A stretch of 64,000 nucleotides of DNA from Branchiostoma floridae. Taxonomy: Eukaryota; Chordata; Leptocardii; Amphioxiformes; Branchiostomatidae. Each line of letters begins with the position of its first letter. Within the stretch, counting starts at the first letter, position 1. Below, piece by piece: positions 13,356 through 62,800 of this stretch. Under the pieces are notes generated by a model. That model was not told the origin of the DNA. It did not search any database and saw only the letters and a list, made by a program, of their open reading frames with translations. The translations under genes and the position numbers were made by a program. The stretch is taken from assembly GCF_000003815.2 (NCBI RefSeq), contig NC_049988.1, positions 16,331,778 to 16,395,777 on the forward strand. The letters run 5' to 3'.

Positions 13356-15450
13356 CTATTCGAAGTTAAACTGCAGTCCAGTTCCCTCCAGCTTTGTCTT
13401 GCATTTCAAGTCGAGCAGCCTGCTTTGCTCGTCGGTAAACATCGTCTTCCAGTCGCCAACAATACCTACAAATGAAATAAAATTTAGACATAACTTCCAG
13501 ACGCCTAGAACACCTTAAAATTGATACAGAGTTAGAAACATGAATTTACCAGTTTTGCGAGAAGTTTTGGGAGAGATGTTGAAAATGACGAGCGTTGAAA
13601 TATTTTTTTGTACATAATACAGAATCAACATGAGGTGTAATCTGTGCTCGTCGACTACCAACAAAACTGGTCGAATCGACTGCTTTATAAGACCTAAGGT
13701 ATTTGATATAGATGCACGTAAATGAATCAAGGAAAAAACTCGATATAGTACAGCAAACATGCGGCATCGCCTCTCCTGCATGCCAGCCCCACTTCAACAC
13801 GAAACGAAATGTCTGATGTGATGTGAACATCTTAAACATGAACTCGAAGTTACCTTTGCGGGCCATAACAGTCCTGTCGTCGTACCGTGAGTTATCCAGG
13901 GTGGACTTCATATTGGAGAAGGTGCACGCATGCGCGATAGTCTCGATGGAAGCGTCATCCAGTTTGACCTGAAGAAACGCCGCCACTGTCTTCACGGCTT
14001 TGGGAAGGTCCTTAGACAAACGGATGTGAGTTCAGAATGCAAGATTGCACTTGTGCATACTTTCAACCTCATAAATGAGACAGAATTATACGATAATCGA
14101 GACCCATCTACCTGCTTCATGTCTTCGTACTTTAAGAACAAGAAGTGAGGGTCGTCACGTTTCTGCCACCAGCCAAGGATGTGGTCGAAGTAGCAGCCGA
14201 ATGGATCTAAGAATACAACAAAGTTTCTCACTCATTTTGGTTTAGGAATACATACTTTGAGTCACTCTGCTATATTTAAAAATGTGTCACGTGGACTAAG
14301 CATATATTGTTATGATCTGTTAACAGTAAATAATGTTGGATACCCTTACATATAAAAGTACAGCCGTACAGCTACAAACGCTATCGAACCCTAGTATTGG
14401 ACTGACTTCAAAGTGGTTCATTTAACAAATTTATATCGTTGAATAATTTCTTCCTACTTACGATTGCCGGGCAGGAAATTCTGCATAAAATATTCATCCC
14501 ACGAATGATGTGCCTGCTTTCCCAAACGAGACCTCATCTTCTGTTCAAAGTGGAAGAAAGAAACCGCCGTGTCCTTGGGATTCCTCATAACGACGATTAC
14601 CTTAACCTGTGACAGAAGGGGCAGAAAACAAATTAAGAATTGTAGTTGTATTCCTTTAAGAATTGTAGTTGTACTACGTAATCGTGACATTTCATATGAA
14701 TAATTGTAACGGTACGTCTAAGAAACCCTTCAGAATGTGACGTCACGTGAAGAGACACTCACGTGACCTTACGTGATGATGACGCAGTATTGCCCGCCAT
14801 GTTGGATGGTTAAACCTGGAAGTTTACAGGTAGATTTGTACATATAACTACAGTCACATAATCGTCACATATCTAAAGAGACCCTTGGGAATGTGTAGTT
14901 ACGTGCAGACACACTCACGTTGTTCTGAGGATGAGCGATCCCAGGCGGGGCGGTGTCCGGGGTGAGGTGGGTGAGGATGACGCGGGGAGAGGCACATTCC
15001 TGTAGCATCACGTGATGAGGGCGTGGCTCGTCAGGATACTGGAACTCCAGCTTCCCCACCATGTCGTCAGAAGAGGCGTCGGTCCGGCCGCCGGCTGACA
15101 GGATCTTGTTGACGATCTCTAGCGTCCAGTTGGTTCCTGTAGGTTATAAAGTCATAACCTCAAACCCATGATTGTTTAGATCCAGTCCAACCCTGTCTTT
15201 GTGTGTCAACGACAAAGTTTAACACAGTTTGCAAAGCAGCTACCGGTGTGAACGCATTCTGTATACAATGTATTACACTATCGCACGCACCTGTTTTCGG
15301 ATACGTCACTATTACGATGTCGTCATCCCGGATGTCAAAAGTCGCCATGGCTTTCAAGTTGTCCTCGGAAACAAACCGTGGATACCTGATGCCCTTGACG
15401 ACATGAGTGAAGTCATCGTCGTCCATGGAACGTGCAGTCGCCTCCGCCAT
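13356..15450 (-). CDS. SULT gene C, cytosolic sulfotransferase, complete
   Basis: Six coding exons: 15291-15450, 14919-15136, 14462-14606, 14112-14206, 13854-14010 and 13356-13465; 294 residues. All SULT signatures are present: YPKTGTNW across the exon 1/2 junction, THLTPDTAP with the catalytic His in exon 2, [13 protein letters not shown] in exon 3 and [12 protein letters not shown] across exons 5/6. The N-terminus is MAEATARSMDDDDF. The gene body from exon 4 through the upstream non-coding exon (about 14.1-16.05 kb) is nearly identical to that of SULT E (about 22.5-24.5 kb), introns included, so the two are recent duplicates or have been converted. The 3' end (exons 5-6 and their flanks) differs more. 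It lies 1.3 kb downstream of B's start on the same strand, with no shared transcript implied. Confidence 0.93.
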
Positions 15451-17205: not shown

Positions 17206-17945
17206 ACCAAGTCCACCGGGTGTGCCTAAACACCACAAACGACCACAAACGACTCAGAAACACCACAAACGACCACAAACGACTCTACTATGCAGTGTAT
17301 ATGGGTCAAAGACCTTGTGTGGCGCTCTGAAGACATTGTTTATACATTTATGAATTTAAAAAACGCAGCAATTCTACGTATTCACCAGTTATTTCGAGTT
17401 AGTCCGGTTTCTAGATTATAGTAATTCTTGGCCACCATGTTGGATCGTGCTTGTTTGCATTTGAGGCTGAAAAACACTTAGTATACAAGTTTCATAAGTT
17501 GACAATGATAGAATTGCGGTATGCTATAATCTATGAACCAACAGCTTTCATCGTTTTATCGCCATGTCGTCTATGGAGCCGAGGAAGGTATCAAGAACTT
17601 CCCCATGCAGACCCCAAGCACGGGCGATCCAACATGGCGGCCAAGAATGGTCCATTGCTTCGATCTTGAAACCAGCAGACTAACTCGAAATAACTGGTGA
17701 ATACGTAGGACTTGCTGCGTTTTTTAGATTCANNNNNNNNNNNNNNNNNNNNNNNNNNNNNNNNNNNNNNNNNNNNNNNNNNNNNNNNNNNNNNNNNNNN
17801 NNNNNNNNNNNNNNNNNNNNNNNNNNNNNNNNCTCCAGACCGCCATACAAGATCTTTGACCCATATACACTGCACAATAGAGTCGTTTGTGGTCGTTTGT
17901 GGTGTTTCTGGGTCGTTTGTGGTCGTTTGTGGTGTTTAGGCGGAC
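17206..17945. mobile_element. Inverted-repeat insertion in intron 5 of SULT D, containing the assembly gap
   Basis: The left arm (about 17217-17470) begins CCTAAACACCACAAACGACC. The right arm (about 17590-17940) is its inverse and ends with GGTGTTTAGG. Each tip has four CACCACAAACGAC-type units. The corresponding intron of SULT F continues without this block, so it is an insertion. Exact ends and target duplication are uncertain. Confidence 0.65.
17733..17832. other. Assembly gap (100 N)
   Basis: Exactly 100 N, the usual placeholder for unknown size. It lies inside the right arm of an inverted repeat. Confidence 0.99.
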
Positions 17946-19513
17946 CTTCCAGACACGACAGTAGTCAATAAAAATGTCGTTATCTAAAACTTGAATGGGG
18001 AAGTTACCTTTGCGCGCGTTCACAGCCCTGCCTCGGTAACGTGAGTTATCCAGGCTGGCCTTCATGCTGGAGAAGGTGCACGCATGCGCGATAGTCTCGA
18101 TGGAAGCGTCATCCAGTTTGACCTGAAGGAACGCCGCAACTGTCTTCACGGCTTTGGGAAGGTCCTGAGACAAACGGTAGCGAGTTGGGAACGCAAGATT
18201 GCACATATACATACCTTCAACTTCATAAGTGAAACAACATGAAACGATAATCGAGAACCATCTACCTGCTTCATGTTTTCGTACTTTAAGAACAAGAAGT
18301 GAGGGTCGTCACGTTTCTGCCACCAGCCAAGGATGTGGTCGAAGTAGCAGCCGAAGTTATCTAAAGAAAACAAGTTCCTAAATATAAAACGTTTTAACCA
18401 GATAGTCCTTAATTTTATCTATCAGGACTGATTATGAATAGTATAATTCATTCAGCTATGTTGAAAATGTGCAGCTTAGATGGACAAGACATAATGGTAA
18501 ACAATTAGAATAAATTACTTGATAACATGTATGTTGATAACTTGTATGAACTGATGTGTTAAAAAAGTAAAAAATGTTTAAGCACAATCTGTTGAATACG
18601 CGTTGAAGCTAATGTCAACGTGGTCCATTTAGCAACATTGCCCTTGGTAGCTTCTCTCTACTTACACTTGCCGGCCAGGAATAACTGAAAGAACTCGTCC
18701 CATGAAGGAGGCGTCTTTCTGGCAAAATGAGACCTGAGCTTCTGTCCGAAGTGGAAGTAAGAAACCGCCGTGTCCTTGGGGTTCCGCATAACGACGATAA
18801 CTTTAACCTGCGACGGAAGGGTCAGAAAACAAATCATCAAATTCCTCAAAGAATTATAATTATTATAGTTGTACAGCAATCGTGACATTTCATATGAATA
18901 TTTGTACGTCTAAGAAACCCTTTAGAATGTGACGTCACGCGCAGACAAACTCACGTGATCTCACCTGATTATGATGTGTTATCCGCCATATTGGATGGTT
19001 AAACCTGGAAGTTGGCAGGTAGATTTGTACATATAATTACAGTCACATAACCGTGACATATTATGTGAGTATGCCTAACAAACCCTTCAGAATGTGACGT
19101 CACGCGCAGACACACTCACGTTGTTCTGAGGATGAGCGATCCCAGGCGGGGCGGTGTCCGGGGTGAGGTGGGTGAGGATGACGCGGGGAGAGGCACATTC
19201 CTGCAGCATCACGTGATGAGGGCGTGGCTCGTCAGGATACTGGAACTCCAGCTTCCCCACCATGTCGTCAGAAGAGGCGTCGGTCCGGCCGCCGGCTGAC
19301 AGGATCTTGGTGACGATTTCTAGTGTCCAGTTGGTTCCTGTAGTTTATAAAGCCATAGTCTCGTATACATGATTGTCCAGGTCCAGTCCGATCCTTTTTT
19401 TGGTAAAGGGATCTAAGGAGCTGAACTGGAGCAAGAAGGCTCCAGAACATTATGGTTACCAGATTGATACATTCAGGATGTTACAGACACAGAAAAACGC
19501 ACACATGTTGTAG

Positions 19514-46009: not shown

Positions 46010-46240
46010 CGCTCACACGACTCAGGCTTATTCTTCTGTTCAGTTTTTCTTCACACGACCGAGGTACTAGGTTTCTTCTCTGTTCAGTTTTTCTTCACAC
46101 GACCGAGGTTTCTTCTCTGTCCAGTTTCTCTTCACACGACCGAGGTTTCTTCTCTGTCCAGTTTCTCTTCACACAACCGAGGTTTCCTCTCTGTCCAGTT
46201 TCTCTTCACACGACCGATGTTTGTTCCCGGTCCAGTTTCC
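46010..46240. repeat. 37-bp minisatellite at the 3' end of the TIR-TMEM268 gene
   Basis: TTCACACGACCGAGG-type units occur at about 46052, 46096, 46133, 46170 and 46207, mostly at 37-bp spacing. The last unit contains the stop codon (46206-46208), so the array seems to have grown from the coding end. Confidence 0.85.
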
Positions 46241-49200
46241 AGCCGAACTCTCTCATCTCCACCAGCTGACACAGACAGGCGCCCTGCTGGGTGTGACCGC
46301 GAGACTGGCGGGGCTGCGGCAGCATCTTGGTGACCAGGAGCCGGACATACTCTTCACTGTACTTCAGAAGCAGGGCCTCGGCTTCCGTCTGAAGAGGGAG
46401 GGAAATGATATCATCACAGTTCCTAGGACATTTTCTTACAACTGCAGGGACTATCTTCTTGGTGGCCAGCAGCCGGACGTACTCTTCACTGTACTTCAGA
46501 AGTAGGGCCTCGGCTTCCGTCTGGAGAGGGAGGGAAAGTTCTCATCAACAGTTCCTATCATTATGGTATTTTCTTACAACTGCAGGGACTATCTTAATGG
46601 TGACCAGCAGCCGGACGTACTGGTCACTGTACTTCAGCAGTAGGGCCTCGGCTTCAGCCTACATAAGGAGGATCATTACAGACCGGGAGCTTAGGAGACG
46701 TCCACATGATTTTGGAACCTGCACAACTAACACGCATGGTAGTGTTGTGAAAGCCTGTGTATGTACTTGCCTCCATAGCAGGTTCTCTGGGCCTTTTTCT
46801 GGAGGGGGGGGGGGGGGGGGGGGGTGTTCATGATACATTTTTGCAGCCGTTTCTTTTTTGTACTAAGTCGCTTTGGCCGGCGGTCGGCAAAATTGTATTA
46901 TGAGACCCCCAAAACGGGGCAAAGGCCAGATACCCTGCTACGGAGGCTATGTACATGTATGTTCGCGTTGGGGGCCTGAATATGCAGAGAAAATTGGAAA
47001 CCCTATCCCTAAATTACTTACTAGTAATATGTGTTGCTCGACCATTTTTACAGGGAGCAATATGTACCTTGAGTGCTGACATTCGGGATGTTTGTGACGA
47101 GCTGCCACCTTGGAAATCTGTGTCTGCGCATGCGTCGTCACTCCCCTCTGACAGAAGAGGAGCCGCATCGTCCACCTCTATGGTTACAACACAGGATGTC
47201 GAGGCACTTTCGGACTCCTGGCAAAATAAAATTACAATTGAATTTTCCTCTGAATACAAATGGGTGAATGACTGAATGACTGAATGACCGAATGACTGAA
47301 TGACTGACTGAATGAATGAATGTATAGCCACTTGTTGAAAGAAAAAGCTCGGCGTTTTAGATACTAGAAGACATCAAACGTATGTACTTCTTATGACTAG
47401 AAGTTTAGACTATGGTTGGCTGTAACGTTACCGGTGGATCATGCATGTTTGATGATGTCGGGGAATCCGATGAGCTCCTCGCCATCAGGTCCTCTAGTAT
47501 CTTCATCTGTAAGTAAAACGGTAAACGGGACCTTGAGCAATGAAACATGAAACCTTGAACAGAAATCTCTACAGCTGTTTCTTTTATCCAGTTGTAGAGA
47601 ATGAATTGTATCTGAATATCACAGCATTTAAGTTCATATGAGTTAGTAGGTTACATTATGGAGAATGTAAACTGTTCGCCTTCGTCTGAATTTTCGACGG
47701 AATCGCTGAGCGAACATCACAGCTGCTCATTGATACTTACCAGTAGGGCTGGGTATCGGTACAGCGTACCGGTACAAAACCGGTTTTTCTTATTGGACCG
47801 GTCCAGAAAAACCGGACCTGAAAAAATTAGGTGGACCGGATGTTGGACCGATTAGAAAATTAACAGATCATCATAAGGCATTCACACGTTTTGACGCTTG
47901 CAGGTGGAAGAAAATAACAAGAGTGAAGTAGAGTAGAGTTTATAGTAATTTCTACCAAGGTTTACAGCCAATCATACTGGTGCAGTTAGCGTTGTAGGAT
48001 TTTAAAACGCCAGTGTAAGTCTAATACTCCACCAAACAGATTTCTTTGTAGTGAAATGGACCATTGGTATGAGTCATACTGCATCAGGTCCAGGTTCAGG
48101 TCCGGACCTGGACCTGATCCTCTGGACCTGAACCGGACCTGGACCTGAATGTTCTGTACCGGTACCCACCCCTACTTACCAGACAAGATCCTCTCTCGTA
48201 GTACACAAAATGGAGCTGATTGTCAAGGTAAGGACAAAGGCATTGTCGGATCCAGATAAAAAATGAAACTATCGTATGAGATTCATAAACCTTTCGAACT
48301 GTAAAAAATGTATACAAATTCACCTAAGGGACCTTGAGTTACAAGTGTGAACACACGCAACCAAAAACAGTACCCCCGTCAGAGGGTACTGTATTTATTT
48401 ATTCTATTAATTTGTTTGGCTGTTCCCTTCCCGAAGGTAATTGTTAAGTACCAGTGAAACATGAAGATCTTGTAGCCTCCATGAGATTTGAGAAGGCTCT
48501 CTGGGCATTTTTCTAGTTTTTTGCGGGGCTCATAATTTTGCTGGCCAAGTCTGGCCGCTTGTCTGCAGTAAAATAGACTTGTATCATTGATTTGAAAGGA
48601 TACAACAGCCACTGGATGGCATATGCATCGTTCTGTCACGCTCGCAAGGATGTGGGACCTGGCCAGGATGGTGTTCACCTCCAGCAGAGTCCTTTTCAAA
48701 GTCCTATCCGTCTGTAAAACATAAGATGGAAGCAAATGATTTCACACTTGATTGCCAACGTGAAAAATGCAACGTTTACAGTACGCCAGAGGCTTGGGAA
48801 AATCACCATCAGCTTTATTCTTACATCAAAGATTATAACGTTATTCGATAAAAAATGTCTAGTATTTAGCAAATCAAAAGTGCAAAATTGTCAAAAGTGT
48901 TGTCTCTTATTAAAACTGTTGGTCATTGTGACTTTACGACAAGGCCATCTAATGAAGAGTACAAAACAATTCGTTGTAATTTATCTAACATCAAAGCATC
49001 CTTTTATGTACCTCTGGAAATACTTTATTAGAGAACACGTTTGAAAGTCTTACTGAATTCCCCGTTGCATGAATCAAAGTCTGAATGTTACCAAGGTCTA
49101 AAAACACAGTGCTAGGCTTACCAAACACAAGAATACAAGACAGGATAATAACGTAAGACCTACCTTGATGCGTGAGATACAGCGAAACACCAGAACCACG

Positions 49201-50064
49201 TGTAGGGCTGCTAGCAACACAGCCAAGGCGACATATTCGTTATAAAGAGCGGCATCGGTACTAGCGTCGATGTAATCGTCGGGTGTACTCATGTAGAACA
49301 ATATAAAAAATGCGTAAAATACAGCTAACACAGGAAATATGACTAGGCAAGTCGGTATCCAGAAGCAGGCCTCGCTAGAGCAGCAGTTGAACCCCTGCAT
49401 CTTGCCAGTCTCCGTGAGTTTGCTGATGGCCTCGTAGTAGTCTTTTCTCGGTATCTACAGATGGAAAGTTTATAAATAATCAGTCATCAACAACTTGTAG
49501 TTGCATACACGTAAGCTACTCGTTTTGATTGGGTATATTTCTACTCCATTTCTACAATAGTTTAATTTACTGACTGTAATTCAAACATTTCGGATAATTA
49601 CGTTACAAGTTACAAAGGAAAGTTGTTTGTTTTTGTACATGTTTCAGGTGAAACTATTTCATTCGTCGCAAATGAATCATTTGCACATTTGTTGCATATT
49701 TCAATTATTCTAAACAGTACTAGTCCGTACCCGAATGCCTTTGGACGTCAGCTCAGTAGGAACAATCTGATCGTCAAACTGGGCACAGGGTGGACAGCAT
49801 GCAGCCGCCGCTTCAATCTTCAACAGCTGTTGTCCATTGTTGAAGTCTGTAAGTATGCAGAAATATATAGAAATTTTTGCGGAGTCCATGTCATAGTCTG
49901 TACTATACTGACTGACAGAGGTAGTTGTAGTTAATATGCAGTATATGCAATATTTTGTTGTTGATACTGACTAACGACACCAATCTAATCAAACAATTTT
50001 TACTAAAATTCTACCATCATCTGTCAAGATGAAAGGATGCCTACTACTACTACTATTGCTATTT

Positions 50065-50129
<65 letters not shown>

Positions 50130-51356
50130 GCCACTACCACTACTAATACCAGGACAATTAGAGTTACAAGTTTTGATGTTAAGACTACTACTACTACTAC
50201 TACTACTGCCACTACCACTACTAATACCAGGACAATTAGAGTTACAAGTTTTGATGTTAAGACTACTACTACTACTACTACTACTGCCACTACCACTACT
50301 AATACCAGGACAATTAGAGTTACAAGTTTTGATGTTAAGAAGACCGGTAACGTTACCATGCCAAAGGTCAGATGGTATATACATGTATTCTACATGTTCT
50401 GAGCTTTTATTCTTGTCCCTGTACAGGTTATTTTGTACAATATTTACTAGTACTACATTTTACATATGTGTTACACGGCCAAAAATTGATACTTACTGGG
50501 GTTGTAGGTGAATGGTGAAAAGGAATCCGATTGGCTGCTTGGATCGTCTGAAGTGCATTCTAAAGTCAAAAACAAAATAAACATTCAAAGAAACAATTGA
50601 CTATTCAACCATTTAAATGTGATTTCACCAACGGATGGTGACAGAGTATGTCGCAGTTTTATGCTCAGATGTATGATCGACCAAAATGAATTTTCCAAAA
50701 TTTTTGTTTTTAGTTTACTTAATAAACATACCTTTCAATGCACCGATGAACCTGTCGAAAAAGTACGGAGTCCACTCTTCCAGGTACGTCATGTGTTGGA
50801 GGAAGTCGGGTAGGACACATTCGCGGAGCATGACGGGAATGACCTTTTTGTTTTCTTCCCTGAGGTTAGCGCCCATGACCATCTGCCGTTCGAAATTGCA
50901 CCACCTGCTGTCCACGAAGTCTCGCGAGAGTACGAAGACGGTCTTTTGGCTCTTTTGGATGGAACGTATGATGTTGTCAATGATGGCCATGCCGGGAAGA
51001 AAATCGCGCTCGTGAAAACAGCACTTGAACCCGAGTTCATCTGATTCGAGTTTCTGGATCATATTTTTCACCCATGGTGCATCAGCGCTGCTGTAGCAGA
51101 AGAAAACGTGGTACTTCTCGTGTTGGCCGAGAGGGGGCGCTATTCCCACCGCCACGCTTTCGTTGTCGTTGTTGCTGCTGTCAGTATCGTCTTCACTATC
51201 GGCTGGAGAATGAAATTCTAGGTCCGCACTACCTCTCCTTTGTCCTGGCATGCATGCATGTGCCCGGCTGTCGCCTTGATGTGCCTCAGAATGACGATGC
51301 ACATTTTCTTTTTGCCCCACTGCGCTGTCTTGTGCAGCCGAAGGTCCCTCACTCAT
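46206..51356 (-). CDS. tmem268: TIR domain fused to TMEM268-like two-pass membrane protein
   Basis: Eleven coding exons join in frame to 602 residues: 50732-51356, 50497-50559, 49731-49846, 49164-49454, 48604-48711, 48180-48215, 47432-47506, 47068-47217, 46578-46658, 46440-46520 and 46206-46388. Residues 1-79 are acidic and Ser-rich. A TIR domain spans about 80-208: box 1 [12 protein letters not shown], box 2 HERDFLPGM, then SRWCNFE and the C-terminal [10 protein letters not shown]. Exon 2 is a Ser-rich linker. From exon 3 on it follows TMEM268: [22 protein letters not shown], two membrane helices (about 299-323 and 342-360), [31 protein letters not shown] and a C-end with [12 protein letters not shown] and CLCQLVE. 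I know vertebrate TMEM268 as lacking a TIR domain. The TIR exon ends in phase 1 with a good donor (AAAG|GTATG) and exon 2 accepts in phase 1, so the fusion is consistent, but a separate TMEM268 start is possible. The last exons repeat a 27-residue module three times. Confidence 0.75.
46801..46826. repeat. Poly-G run in a TIR-TMEM268 intron
   Basis: An almost uninterrupted G tract of over 20 bases on the plus strand; its length is probably poorly determined. Confidence 0.9.
47266..47322. repeat. GAATGACT tandem repeat
   Basis: Seven to eight imperfect GAATGACT units in the intron before the DDAAPLL exon. Confidence 0.85.
47744..48174. mobile_element. hAT-like MITE inserted at a splice donor of the TIR-TMEM268 gene
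   Basis: A 431-bp element with ends TAGGGCTGGGT and the inverse of TAGGGGTGGGT, matching the hAT terminal pattern YARNG. The flanking 8-bp CTTACCAG occurs at 47736-47743 and 48175-48182. Internally it is rich in GGTACC and GGTCC palindromic runs. No ORF resembling a transposase is present. Confidence 0.78.
50056..50345. repeat. CTA triplet repeat plus 78-bp minisatellite (3 copies)
   Basis: A CTA/TAC triplet run (about 50056-50130) is followed by units starting GCCACTACCACTACTAATAC at 50130, 50208 and 50286. It lies in intron 2 of the TIR-TMEM268 gene. Its poly-Leu, poly-Thr and poly-Ser frames are artefacts. Confidence 0.9.
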
Positions 51357-51437
51357 GATGGTAATTCGATGATCCCTAAAAAGTTGAAGCTTTTTTTATT
51401 CTTAATTACGTCAAAACACACAGACACGTGACACAAC

Positions 51438-56697: not shown

Positions 56698-58503
56698 ATG
56701 CCGAACGAACGTAGCACAGGGGTGGAGATGGAACCCCTGACCACCACGGAAACTACCACTACTCCAGAGGGGGGCGATGGTGCCAGCGAAAAAAGTTCGG
56801 AACACGAGAACCCCACAGGTACATGTATAACGTTTTTATCGGAAAAGTGGTGGAAAGAAATGGAAGTACATAGATTTTAACAATTACGACTTACAACAGT
56901 TTCTTCTGACTAATATTATAAGACTGAGAACTGTCTGAGAACTTCCTTGCACTGTCATACTATAGACGGAGGGGAATGGCTTCTCCCATCTGCAGCTTTG
57001 TTGGGTAAAACTTTTTTCTTTCTTGACTTCGGCAACCCCAAAGTACAGCTTTGCACCTTAATTAAAGCAGACCCCACTTTGCACTTACAGGGCCTTTGTA
57101 CTCACGTGACTATGACGTAATTGTCCGCCATGATGGACGATTAATACTGATGGGTGATGGAGAAATTCGAATATTTCATACGTCACGTGATTATGACGTA
57201 ATCAACATTTATCCAGGCTCAACCAACCAACATGTGGCCGTGACGTCACATGCAGACATCCAACAAGAATCGCATTCAATTTTGTTATCATAAGAAATAG
57301 ATCACGCTTATAGCTCAGCTCTTCGGCTTCTATTAAGGCTGATATTTTAACTTTTTCCTTGTTACAGAACTGTTGAGATGTGATGATCAAGAGAAAAGAA
57401 CAATCAAAAGAAAAAAAATCATAGATTTCCATAGCAATTCTTGCAGTTAGGTGTGCAAAGAGAAGCTGCTGCCGCACTGCTTGAATGTGACGCTAACTTC
57501 TGTGTTACGCCAGATGCAAATACCCAAATCTCTATACTTCTTTTTTGTTTTTATTGTGTTTAAATTTTCCGTCTTCATTTAGGTCGTGTGATCAGTAACG
57601 TGAACACATACGCGACGCTGAAGACGGTGGTGCAGGGACTGATGGACACGGCGCTGTTCACCAGTAACGCCTCACAGATGGCAAACCTGCTCAAGGGCAG
57701 GGAGACGGACCCTTTCACGCACCTAGAGGTAAGGAGTGTTTTAAAGATGTTGAAGACTTTCTTACTTACATCTTCCTCAGGTAGGCCTTGGGGTCTGTCA
57801 GCTGAGAGCATCGTCTTTTCCACTCTTCTTGTGATATTGGAAGATTCCTCCTCTTCCAGTCTGCTCAGACTGTACTTTTTCAGTATTTACTGTATGTTGC
57901 CTTTCCATATGTTGAAGACTTTAAGTTTGCTAAAGTCTTGACATTTGAATGTTGACGTTTCATTCTTCAAAGTACATGTACTTTCAATGTTACTGATATG
58001 TATTGCTAGCACACAAATGCACATAGAAGTCTTTGGGGAGGATTTGGACGTTGCTGTTTTACAAGGGAAACATGAGATAGTCTGAAAAGGAAATATCAAA
58101 ATGTTAACCAAAGTGAGCTATAGAGGCTAAATTACGAGTTGCTAGTCTGGTATCCAAACCCATTATAGCTCCTCTCATTCAACAAAGAGACTTTGTAGCT
58201 ATATAATTTTTTCCTTTTTTTAGGTTTGAGCACCAGGCTACGAATTGCAAGTATGTCCTTAACTGTAATAATGTTCTATTCCACTAGGTGGCGCGTGTGA
58301 CACTGCTGTCCTTCTCCATGGTGTTCCAAGTGGTCATCTTCTCCCTCCTGGTTGTCCAGGGAGCAACAAACATCGAGAAGTTGGAGGAGGACAAGGAGAA
58401 GAGGAAGAAACAGGAGGACATGCTGAAGGCAACAAACATCGCTGCCATTGTGTTCTCTATGTTGGTTGTTCTGATCAACATATTTGTGACAAAGTTGGAA
58501 TAA
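56698..58503 (+). CDS. ninj: Ninjurin-like membrane protein 3
   Basis: Three exons: 56698-56818, 57583-57728 and 58288-58503; 160 residues. The Thr/Glu/Ser-rich N-tail (residues 1-40) is followed by the helical region in exon 2 (VQGLMDTALFTSNASQMANL), the clearest match to the ninjurin core NASQ motif in this window. Exon 3 gives two hydrophobic helices (about 93-112 and 140-158) separated by a long charged linker rich in Lys and Glu (EKLEEDKEKRKKQEDML), and the C-terminus is IFVTKLE. Phases match ninjurins 1 and 2. It sits on the far side of the TIR-TMEM268 gene, head to head with it across 5.3 kb. Its 3' end (last codons and 3' flank) is duplicated in tandem at 58.73-58.94 kb. Confidence 0.88.
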
Positions 58504-59897: not shown

Positions 59898-62800
59898 TCA
59901 GTTAGGCAGCTCCAGCAGGCTGAAGTCAGTGACACAGTCCATGAGCCAGGTGACAGGAACGGTACACAGCTTGGCCGTGCGGATCCTGGGAGGGATCTTG
60001 GCGGATTTCTCATCGTACAGAATGAAGTGGGAGCAGTGTGCGAGGTCCGAGTCCTTCCGGGCGTGGTAGGCAACCGTGGTGGAGGCCTGGAACAGGAGGA
60101 AGACGTGGTCAGAGTTGTATGTTTGTGCATATTGTCATGATTTTCAAGTGGTGGGTAGCTCTTGTTTCAATGTTGTAGCTTCAGGGGGCATTCAATCAAT
60201 TCTTGGCTTTAGCTACACATGGGCACAACAAAAATTTCCGGAATACTTTTAAAAGAGGTACAACTCTAATAAGTCAAATTCTTTCTATACCACTAAACAA
60301 TACAAATGAGGGCAGCAAGTCTTTCAGAAGTTATCAGACTTCTTTCATAAGTGAAAAGAAAAGTTTACAAAGAATAAGCATGAAACTAGCAAAATACTTA
60401 CAATAAAAAACTGACTTTGGGGTTTTGATACATTTGTAGCTCGTGTTCTCAATCTGGACATGCTATGGTCATAATTGTTTTGACTGCTTAAGTTGTTGAA
60501 TCGAATTACTATTGACACAACAAGAATTACAGTGACCCTTTGGTAAAGGTTATATCTACAACACTGTGAGAATACCCTCACCTGTAAACAGTCGCTGTCA
60601 GGTTTGGGTTCCCTGGCCAGCACCCCCCCTCCCCCTGCCCTGATCAGCTCGATAAGCTCCTTCCTGGGGGGTGTGGGGGGCTGGAACTTCCCATGCAGGA
60701 AGAAGTGGCAGCCATCGAACAGTCCCGGCAGCTGGGGGAGGAAAAAAGTGAATATAAGAAATTTTTGTTAGAAAACATATAAGCTGCAGAGCACCCACCT
60801 GCTTCTTGGACATCAGTACAGTGTACAAATAGAAGCTGTGCATGTAAAGAAGTAGTAGCAGTATATAGTAAAGGTAGCAGTAAAGTTAACAATAATTTTG
60901 AATATACAGTGTAATACAGAAGGATGCAAATGGTAATACCATGTATGTCAAACGTAATGTATCTAATGTGTCAAAGCCTTATGATATAATCTAAATACTT
61001 GTAACCTGTTGTTTGCCAGAAGGCTACAAGTTTGTTTGTACTAGAAAAAAGTGCTTTAAATGGCTAGATTTAAACCCAGGTTTTGTCCCTATATTAACCT
61101 CATAAAACAAACCAAAAAACTTGGACTTCAAACAAACAAACAAAACAAACAAACAAACAGACCTGTTGCTCTTTGTTAAGCCTCCCCCTGCTGGCCCCTG
61201 TACTGTCAGGTTTAGCTGCTGTTCCCAGGACTTCATACGGACCCTCTGGTACATGCTGCTGTTCCTCCAGACAGGCAGACACCCCTGGACACATACAGAG
61301 GAAAGATTTAAATCTATAAAATATTTCTGTAACATAAGGCCTCCTTAATAAGATACTGTAAATGCAGAAACTTTCGCGGTGGTATAATGTTCGTGGGTTT
61401 TCACGGTGGCCGCTTCACCGCGAACTTAAAACCACCGCGAACATTTTTCCATGGCAGTAAGACTAACTAAGAGACTACAGTGCATGGTGCTACCGGGAAC
61501 TTAAAAACCACAACATAAAGTCATTTTTCCCGCTACTGAGAAATTAAATCCCCGCATTTACAGTATCCTGGACACATTTAGAGGAGAGACTCAAGTCTCA
61601 TTTAGGAGTCCTGTCTGTGCGGTGTATATTGTATAGTGGTCTGCGCACTCACTGTTTAATGTACAGAGGTTTGATGCATGAGGGGAATGCCCAAGGCTTC
61701 TCATACATGGGTACATATTCAAACACAATTCAATCTCAAAAACTGAATAAAAAGAGGGATTGAATTTGTAGAGGTTGAATTGTATTTGGATATTGTTTAG
61801 CTGGATGTTTAACCTTCATAAACGTATCAGGAGTACATATGTACTGAATTCTGACTGCTGCTATATTCTGATAGTCTAGCCAAAAAAGTGTTTCTTCAAA
61901 TAAGAGTACAGCTAGCCTCACATTTGAACATAGAGTAAGAGTAAAGCTAGCCTCACATTTGAACATAGAGTAAGAGTAAAGCTAGCCTCACATTTGAAGC
62001 TGACGATCCACTTCCCGGTGAGGACCCCCCGGAGGTACTTGATGGTGCGAGGGCAGCGTCTGGTGTCGTCACAAGCTGCGACAAGATGGGTCACTGCAAA
62101 TGGGAACAGCAGGTACATCAAGTTTGTATTACTGCGTATACAATGATGAAATACAAAATACATTGTAGAGTCATACCTTGTCCATGTTTATGTCTATGTA
62201 TTATCTATGTATAGAAGAATCTCAATAGATAGATAAATAAATAAATAACATTTGTCCACATCATCACTTTTAAACCACAGTAAAGAAAGGCAAACTGAGA
62301 AGTGATATGGTCAAGTGTCCCAGTCATCGGGACTAGATAGAACTATCATGCAGGAAGAAAGAGGCGTAGGCAGAGAATGAACAGGTATGACATTGAGTGA
62401 AACAAAGAAGAAAAGAAAACCGTTAGTCAATTGGACATTTTGTAGTATTATTGTACCAAAAATGGTATTCTCACCTTGGTCACTGAATGTCTTTACCACT
62501 TTCCCATCCAGGACCAGCATGCACTGCTCCAGCGCTTCCCTCTGTTTGGTGTCCAGTCCCGTTGCCAAGGCAACGACCTGTCCAACCTGGCTGCTTGTTG
62601 TCATGACAACCTAGGGCATCAAAATTACTGTTTAAAACTTGTGCCGAGACAATGTCAAGGTAAAATGTTTAAAAAAAAAAGTAACCTTTAAGATATACAT
62701 GTATCAACTACGAAGAAAGTGACTCTTCAATAACTTAAACTTTTTCTGAGGAAAAAATAACACCTTTCTATCTTTATCTATCTAGATCTAATAGTAAATA

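Follow-up and report, generated by a model that had tools for sequence, protein, structure and literature searches.

The amphioxus Branchiostoma floridae carries, on contig C10 (NC_049988.1, assembly GCF_000003815.2), a locus at which a Toll/interleukin-1 receptor (TIR) domain is followed by the exons of a TMEM268-like membrane protein. The window analysed here is the whole stretch of 64,000 nucleotides at C10:16331778-16395777, and the assembly to which it belongs, 513,431,437 bases in 431 contigs, was the search space for relatives within the same genome. Between 51356 and 46206 of the window, on the minus strand, 11 exons can be spliced into one open frame of 602 codons, with GT..AG at all internal junctions and with consistent phases, the exons starting in phases 0, 1 and 1 and thereafter in phase 0. 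The features of this gene model are the following.

51376..51377, minus strand: probable splice acceptor AG, 19 nt 5' of the start codon
50732..51356, minus strand: exon 1, with the start codon, an N-terminal stretch of about 80 aa, the complete TIR domain (51116-50733) and a phase-1 end
50497..50559, minus strand: exon 2 (linker), 63 nt, phase 1-1, 21 protein letters
49731..49846, minus strand: exon 3, first DUF4481/TMEM268 exon, 116 nt, start phase 1
49164..49454, minus strand: exon 4, with both membrane helices and the short loop between them
49352-49296 and 49232-49176, minus strand: the two helices in exon 4 (aa 303-321 and aa 343-361), from hydropathy
48604..48711, minus strand: exon 5, 108 nt, donor GTATCC (at 48603)
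48180..48215, minus strand: exon 6, 36 nt, 12 protein letters
47432..47506, minus strand: exon 7, from frame and splice sites
47068..47217, minus strand: exon 8, holding DDAAPLL (47172-47152), an acidic dileucine-type motif
46578..46658, minus strand: exon 9, 81 nt, first of two tandem repeats of the beginning of exon 11
46440..46520, minus strand: exon 10, 81 nt, second of the two repeats of that segment
46206..46388, minus strand: exon 11, with the C-terminal DUF4481 motif and the stop codon; PF14800 match in the search of the own genome

A preliminary description of this DNA had proposed a single phase-consistent series of 11 exons here, and the two junctions that it named, 50732 to 50559 and 50497 to 49846, lie exactly at those places in the model. 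A longer exon 5 (48711-48452) was discarded as it breaks the frame, which the donor GTATCC at 48603 keeps open.

Two domain families are recognised in the modelled protein. Pfam detects TIR_2 at aa 84-193 (6.8e-22) and TIR (3.3e-18), followed by DUF4481 (1.5e-23) in two stretches, the best of which spans aa 233-512 and profile positions 2-272 of 293. The bit scores lie well above the curated cut-offs (78.7 against 28 and 66.5 against 21.3 for the TIR domains, 84.1 against 25 for DUF4481). These are the sole Pfam domains over cut-off in the protein as modelled, coding exons further upstream not having been searched for. Neither a death domain, SAM nor ARM was found in it by Pfam, and membership of a SARM1-like or MyD88-like group was discarded on that ground. 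Hydropathy gives two strong peaks, at aa 303-321 (2.61) and aa 343-361 (2.59), with about 20 residues between them. The description of a TIR domain joined to a TMEM268-like body with two helices is thereby borne out, and a membrane-anchored TIR protein devoid of a Toll-like ectodomain fits what the modelled exons, from the start codon onwards, encode. Among solved structures, those closest to the TIR domain are TLR2 (E 1.3e-24) and TLR1, then TLR6, a TLR15/TLR2 entry and TLR10; more distant matches include Toll-receptor-related 2 (4w8h, 2.5e-15), which we take to be a Hydra protein, and a metazoan TIR-STING fusion (6wt6, 2.4e-13). The TMEM268 part had zero matches to solved structures at E up to 1, and single-sequence AlphaFold prediction of the TIR domain alone reached a mean pLDDT of 38.4.

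The same arrangement recurs elsewhere in the genome. A TIR search of the assembly, in which 107 candidates were scored and match counts are lower bounds, gave at least 88 TIR matches. Among the matches listed, identity to the window TIR is 73-100% for six and 26-45% for the other 82, none of which clearly stands out as nearest. All six close TIRs are followed by a linker and then by TMEM268 exons, downstream on the same strand and in matching phases, an association far beyond chance. Seven TMEM268 loci were found, six of them through a family-model search (8 exon matches) and C8:3840410 through a protein search, and six of the seven carry the TIR. The six joined copies are these.

C10, 51356-46206 of the window, minus strand: window copy
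P1, C12: TIR exon reaching at least 22319357, where a gap hides its start; other end of the copy at 22314059
P2, C12:22310898-22296934: frameshifted copy
P3, C8:3708824-3702483
P4, C8:3683538-3668454
P5, C8:3833938-3840592, plus strand

They lie on three chromosomes and on both strands; their domains, exon order, phases and copy number are directly established. Every copy has a phase-1 GT donor at the end of the TIR, the common exon-3 acceptor, an exon 3 of 116 nt and an exon 5 of 108 nt with the donor GTATCC. The linker exon is likewise present in all six, always in phase 1-1; three copies have it with 63 nt and the other three with 51 nt. Exon 6 has 36 nt in five copies and one base fewer in P2. 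P3, P4 and P5 could each be joined into an open frame with consistent phases, and all three models have both TIR and DUF4481 over the Pfam cut-offs (P5 being modelled without exon 8, and the last residues of P3 being left out of the search). At the 5' end, an AG stands 18-25 nt before the ATG in the five readable copies, P1 having an assembly gap there; its recurrence suggests a further exon upstream. The start codon context MSE/MSD is common to the same five copies. An in-frame stop lies between the AG and the ATG in two of them (P2 and P3), and in the other three coding sequence might, formally, extend upstream of the ATG. At the 3' end, exons 9 and 10 of the window copy (within 46658-46388, minus strand) are 81 nt each, in phase 0-0, each with its own donor. 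No separate extra repeat of this type was found by tblastn in the other five copies; exon 11 of P4 contains a short internal repeat of the segment that is repeated in window exons 9 and 10. Intron 2 of the window copy holds a minisatellite of three near-identical units plus an AGT run (50340-50040, minus strand).

The seventh TMEM268 locus stands alone, at about C8:18457370-18449405 on the minus strand, and supplies a comparison from within the same genome. Its exon structure was read from the sequence, not from annotation. It has its own first exon of 124 nt devoid of a TIR, and no TIR match at E up to 1 was found in the surrounding C8:18445001-18475000. Its first intron is in phase 1, as is the intron that precedes exon 3 in the fusion. 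The junction after that falls at the same position in both (ARIQ|IPSDD in the stand-alone gene, GIR|IPRKD in the fusion), in phase 0 in both. The GTATCC donor and the 36-nt exon also recur, and the stand-alone gene contains DEESPLL, to be compared with DDAAPLL in the window copy. The helices of the stand-alone gene are split over two exons by an intron, whereas in the fusion both lie in exon 4. As the first intron of the stand-alone gene is also in phase 1, the likely origin of the fusion is exon shuffling, with insertion into this phase-1 intron in a duplicate of TMEM268 and later duplications of the joined gene. The human isoforms of TMEM268 differ by one Gln after Ile71 (PMC6748091). We infer that this difference marks a splice junction at the same spot.

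Selection was compared between the copies exon by exon. dN/dS of the TIR is 0.08-0.34 in all 15 pairs of copies, which shows purifying selection. Exon 3 gives 0.07-0.48 in 12 of the 15 pairs (dS being saturated in the other three), exon 5 gives 0 to 0.65 over 15 pairs, and the short exon 2 (16-20 codons) gives 0.12-0.54 in 10 of 15, with dS saturated in two; exons 7 and 8 were left out of the comparison. Exon 2 also stands out from its surroundings. In the group of C10, P1 and P2 it is 86-92% identical (ungapped) vs 57-66% in its 60-nt flanks, and between C10 and P4 or P5 the values are 63-65% vs 44-52%, the flank identities being gapped and the shuffled baseline about 50%. Protein distances of the TIR and of TMEM268 exons 3+5 are correlated (r = 0.85; among 720 permutations, with the observed order counted, 2 give as high a value). 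Clustering of TIR and body agrees on C10/P1/P2 and orders P3-P5 differently. The highest dN among the exons compared, 0.36-0.82, belongs to exon 4, for which three copies only (C10, P1 and P4) were compared. In these copies exon 4 changes much faster than the TIR, and its length varies between copies; from rate and length variation, the membrane part looks as if it were diversifying.

Six copies with conserved order, linker and phases, together with a stand-alone TMEM268 for comparison, provide strong support for a fused gene. On this genomic evidence, TIR-TMEM268 is very probably one gene, present six times in the genome.

How such a protein would work can be approached through its mammalian relatives. 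In the mouse study (PMC11169502), TMEM268 residues 1-152 bind the C-terminus of CD11b, TMEM268 stabilises CD11b by slowing its endosomal-lysosomal degradation, and loss of Tmem268 lowers CD11b and worsens sepsis, a link to antibacterial immunity. Cytokines are higher in the knock-outs, from which the authors suggest enhanced TLR signalling while wanting more evidence (PMC11169502). Human TMEM268 binds integrin beta-4 (PMC6748091). The preliminary description, which also named the integrin beta-4 connection, calls TMEM268 a family of unknown function; the findings on integrin beta-4 and CD11b supersede that view. In the amphioxus protein, two helices would place both protein ends on the same side of the membrane, and the TIR would make that side the cytosol. 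We infer the topology, location, partners and direction of signalling, as well as splicing in RNA. Two helices joined by a short loop would anchor the protein in the membrane, its N-terminal TIR and its C-terminus being cytosolic. The TMEM268 body would bring the TIR next to a partner, at the plasma membrane or the endosome; by analogy with mouse TMEM268 this partner would be an integrin cytoplasmic tail. With its BB loop, the TIR would dock on TIR domains of the TLR or MyD88 type, and the net effect would be to couple an integrin-like partner to TLR/MyD88-type TIRs. That the product acts as such a membrane-anchored TIR adaptor or co-receptor is the mechanism that we tentatively favour; the statement as a whole, fusion gene plus adaptor/co-receptor mechanism, is somewhat favoured in our judgement.

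Several features of the copies bear on this mechanism. The BB-loop motif RDF-x-PG is present in five of the six. The pattern [DE]xxxL[LI] also occurs in exon 8 of P1 and P2; the DDAAPLL of the window copy is presumably of the acidic-dileucine sorting type. Against the mechanism count the lack of the usual BB-loop Pro-Gly order in P3, the absence of [DE]xxxL[LI] from exon 8 of P3 and P4, and a weaker third hydropathy peak (1.69), which falls within the exon 9/10 repeat at aa 505-523 and could upset the topology. Integrin binding, moreover, is known for mammalian TMEM268 only.

The main rival to an adaptor or co-receptor is an inhibitor. The fusion would be real, and the protein would act at the membrane as a decoy, its TIR sequestering the TIR domains of TLRs or MyD88, a role for which SIGIRR is the model. 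The modelled protein has neither a sensing ectodomain nor a death domain, as a decoy might, and the raised cytokines of Tmem268-deficient mice, tentatively assigned to TLR signalling, would agree with a TMEM268 that may damp TLR output (PMC11169502). A BB loop kept in five of six copies and a strongly constrained TIR suit decoy and activator alike and are thus undecisive; we consider a decoy rather unlikely. Less likely still, and improbable in our estimate, is that the TIR is an NADase executing cell death, with TMEM268 keeping it at the membrane. A glutamate within the stretch S[RK]WC[NE]FE is present in all six copies, at what we take to be the place of the SARM1 catalytic glutamate. The TIR of TLR2, however, has the same glutamate (WCKYE) and is, to our knowledge, non-catalytic; the closest solved TIRs are those of TLRs, and SARM1 is absent from the chain names of the 43 matches listed.

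A further reading doubts the fusion itself and sees two neighbours, a TIR-only gene, whose frame of 213 codons ends at 50715, and a TMEM268 gene with its own ATG, starting before exon 2, before exon 3 or at some other, unseen first exon. For the window locus alone two genes would be possible, since the frame of the TIR exon, read past its donor in C10, stops after 5 codons and in-frame ATGs stand directly before exons 2 and 3. The claim of the preliminary description that the TIR exon has no stop and must splice onward accordingly survives in its first part, if barely, and is weak in its second. The stop would also allow a TIR-only product by intron retention, and intron 2 contains one AATAAA, at 50411 (in introns 1-2 of the other copies P1 has one, P2 none, P3 two and P4 five, P5 being outside the scan). 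Neither AATAAA nor ATTAAA occurs in the 706 bases 3' of the stop codon. In addition, P2 has a frame change inside exon 4 and lacks a base in exon 6, and would be either a pseudogene or a carrier of assembly errors; the C8 copies show poor conservation of exons 7 and 8, P5 being modelled without exon 8; and dN/dS of the short exon 2 exceeds 1 in three of the 15 pairs, all involving P3. All these points weigh against a fused gene. The comparison of copies nevertheless speaks against separate genes. The ATG directly before exon 3 is found in one copy of six (C10), and that before exon 2 in three (C10, P2 and P3), at unlike distances of 8, 48 and 7 codons from the exon and amid unlike residues. 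The read-through tails past the TIR donor vary (5, 18, 13, at least 50, 21 and 6 codons), while the phase-1 donor is kept in all six. All six likewise retain the linker, including its splice sites and phase, and in the C10/P1/P2 group it is more alike than its flanks. Two genes would also leave the exon-2 acceptor and the TIR-exon donor with little role, and we regard this reading as highly improbable. An assembly artefact or dead duplicate, for which one frameshifted copy among six and N gaps in the C12 region might be cited, is scarcely credible given that the window copy and three others yield open frames with agreeing phases, that the six copies lie on three chromosomes and both strands, and that TIR dN/dS is low.

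The TIR-TMEM268 fusion resembles several known systems and differs from each. It shares with TMEM268 (C9orf91) a nearly full-length DUF4481 (PF14800) and two helices close together, and the splice junctions compared match those of the stand-alone TMEM268 of the same genome. In the human protein the helices span residues 104-126 and 130-152 and DUF4481 begins at residue 38 (PMC6748091). Known TMEM268 proteins are devoid of a TIR, whereas the fusion has more than 220 residues, TIR plus linker exon, before DUF4481. With TLR2/TLR1-type receptors it has in common a TIR nearest to TLR2 among solved structures and the BB loop RDF-x-PG; in contrast to Toll-like receptors, the model has no leucine-rich ectodomain, its TIR is N-terminal and it has two helices instead of one. 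The Hydra proteins HyTRR-1/2 are also membrane TIR proteins without leucine-rich repeats, but have a short extracellular domain, and TMEM268 does not figure in their description (PMC1896004). Metazoan TIR-STING (6wt6) likewise combines an animal TIR with another immune module, the partner being STING, not DUF4481. In amphioxus itself, TIR-NACHT, TIR-NB-ARC-WD40, TIR-SAM and TIR-Laminin follow the same trend of TIR shuffling, and 28 TIR combinations, 20 of them amphioxus-specific, are reported (PMC2575513). The main text of that paper contains no word beginning with DUF; its supplementary list may hold a prior listing under another name (PMC2575513). In the open-access literature, we found no description of TMEM268 with a TIR domain or of TMEM268 in amphioxus, and DUF4481 was named only in work on human TMEM268. 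A database entry with the TIR-TMEM268 architecture may exist. TIR shuffling in amphioxus being already known, the combination with TMEM268 would be what is new.

A joined gene in six copies hints that TMEM268 itself belongs to immune signalling. A broader, and doubtful, reading is that these proteins form a new polytopic membrane TIR class, in which TMEM268 is an old scaffold tying integrin phagocytic receptors and endosomal sorting to TIR signalling, fused and multiplied in amphioxus; under the same reading the TIR would be conserved for signalling and the membrane part would be fast-changing. If the scaffold reading were true, the fusion would be a 'Rosetta stone' from which one learns that TMEM268 of mammals acts together with a TIR protein in trans. 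Functional papers on TMEM268 are few, and the six genes that join it to a TLR-like TIR support the TLR link suspected in mouse by an independent, evolutionary route. The resulting question is whether human TMEM268 associates with TLR, MyD88 or TIRAP. The amphioxus TIR repertoire, for its part, gains a membrane module whose origin is traceable by exon phase.

Other features were noted nearby or elsewhere. On C16:4047093-4107771, minus strand, there is a cluster of four single-exon TIR frames of 197-217 aa that are 33-38% identical to the window TIR; no TMEM268 exon match at E up to 0.5 was found in C16:4040001-4110000. Rfam, at gathering scores, had zero matches in the window. About 6 kb upstream of the fusion gene and on the opposite strand, window positions 57564-57941 (plus strand) hold a Ninjurin-like exon (Pfam 1.1e-08). 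A BRCT-like exon at 60345-60767, minus strand, scores just below the Pfam cut-off (26.3 vs 27.3 bits). Finally, a sulfotransferase-like exon with a Pfam Sulfotransfer_1 match lies at 13546-14031, minus strand, and a similar one, whose resemblance comes from the list of open reading frames only, at 17730-18308 on the same strand.

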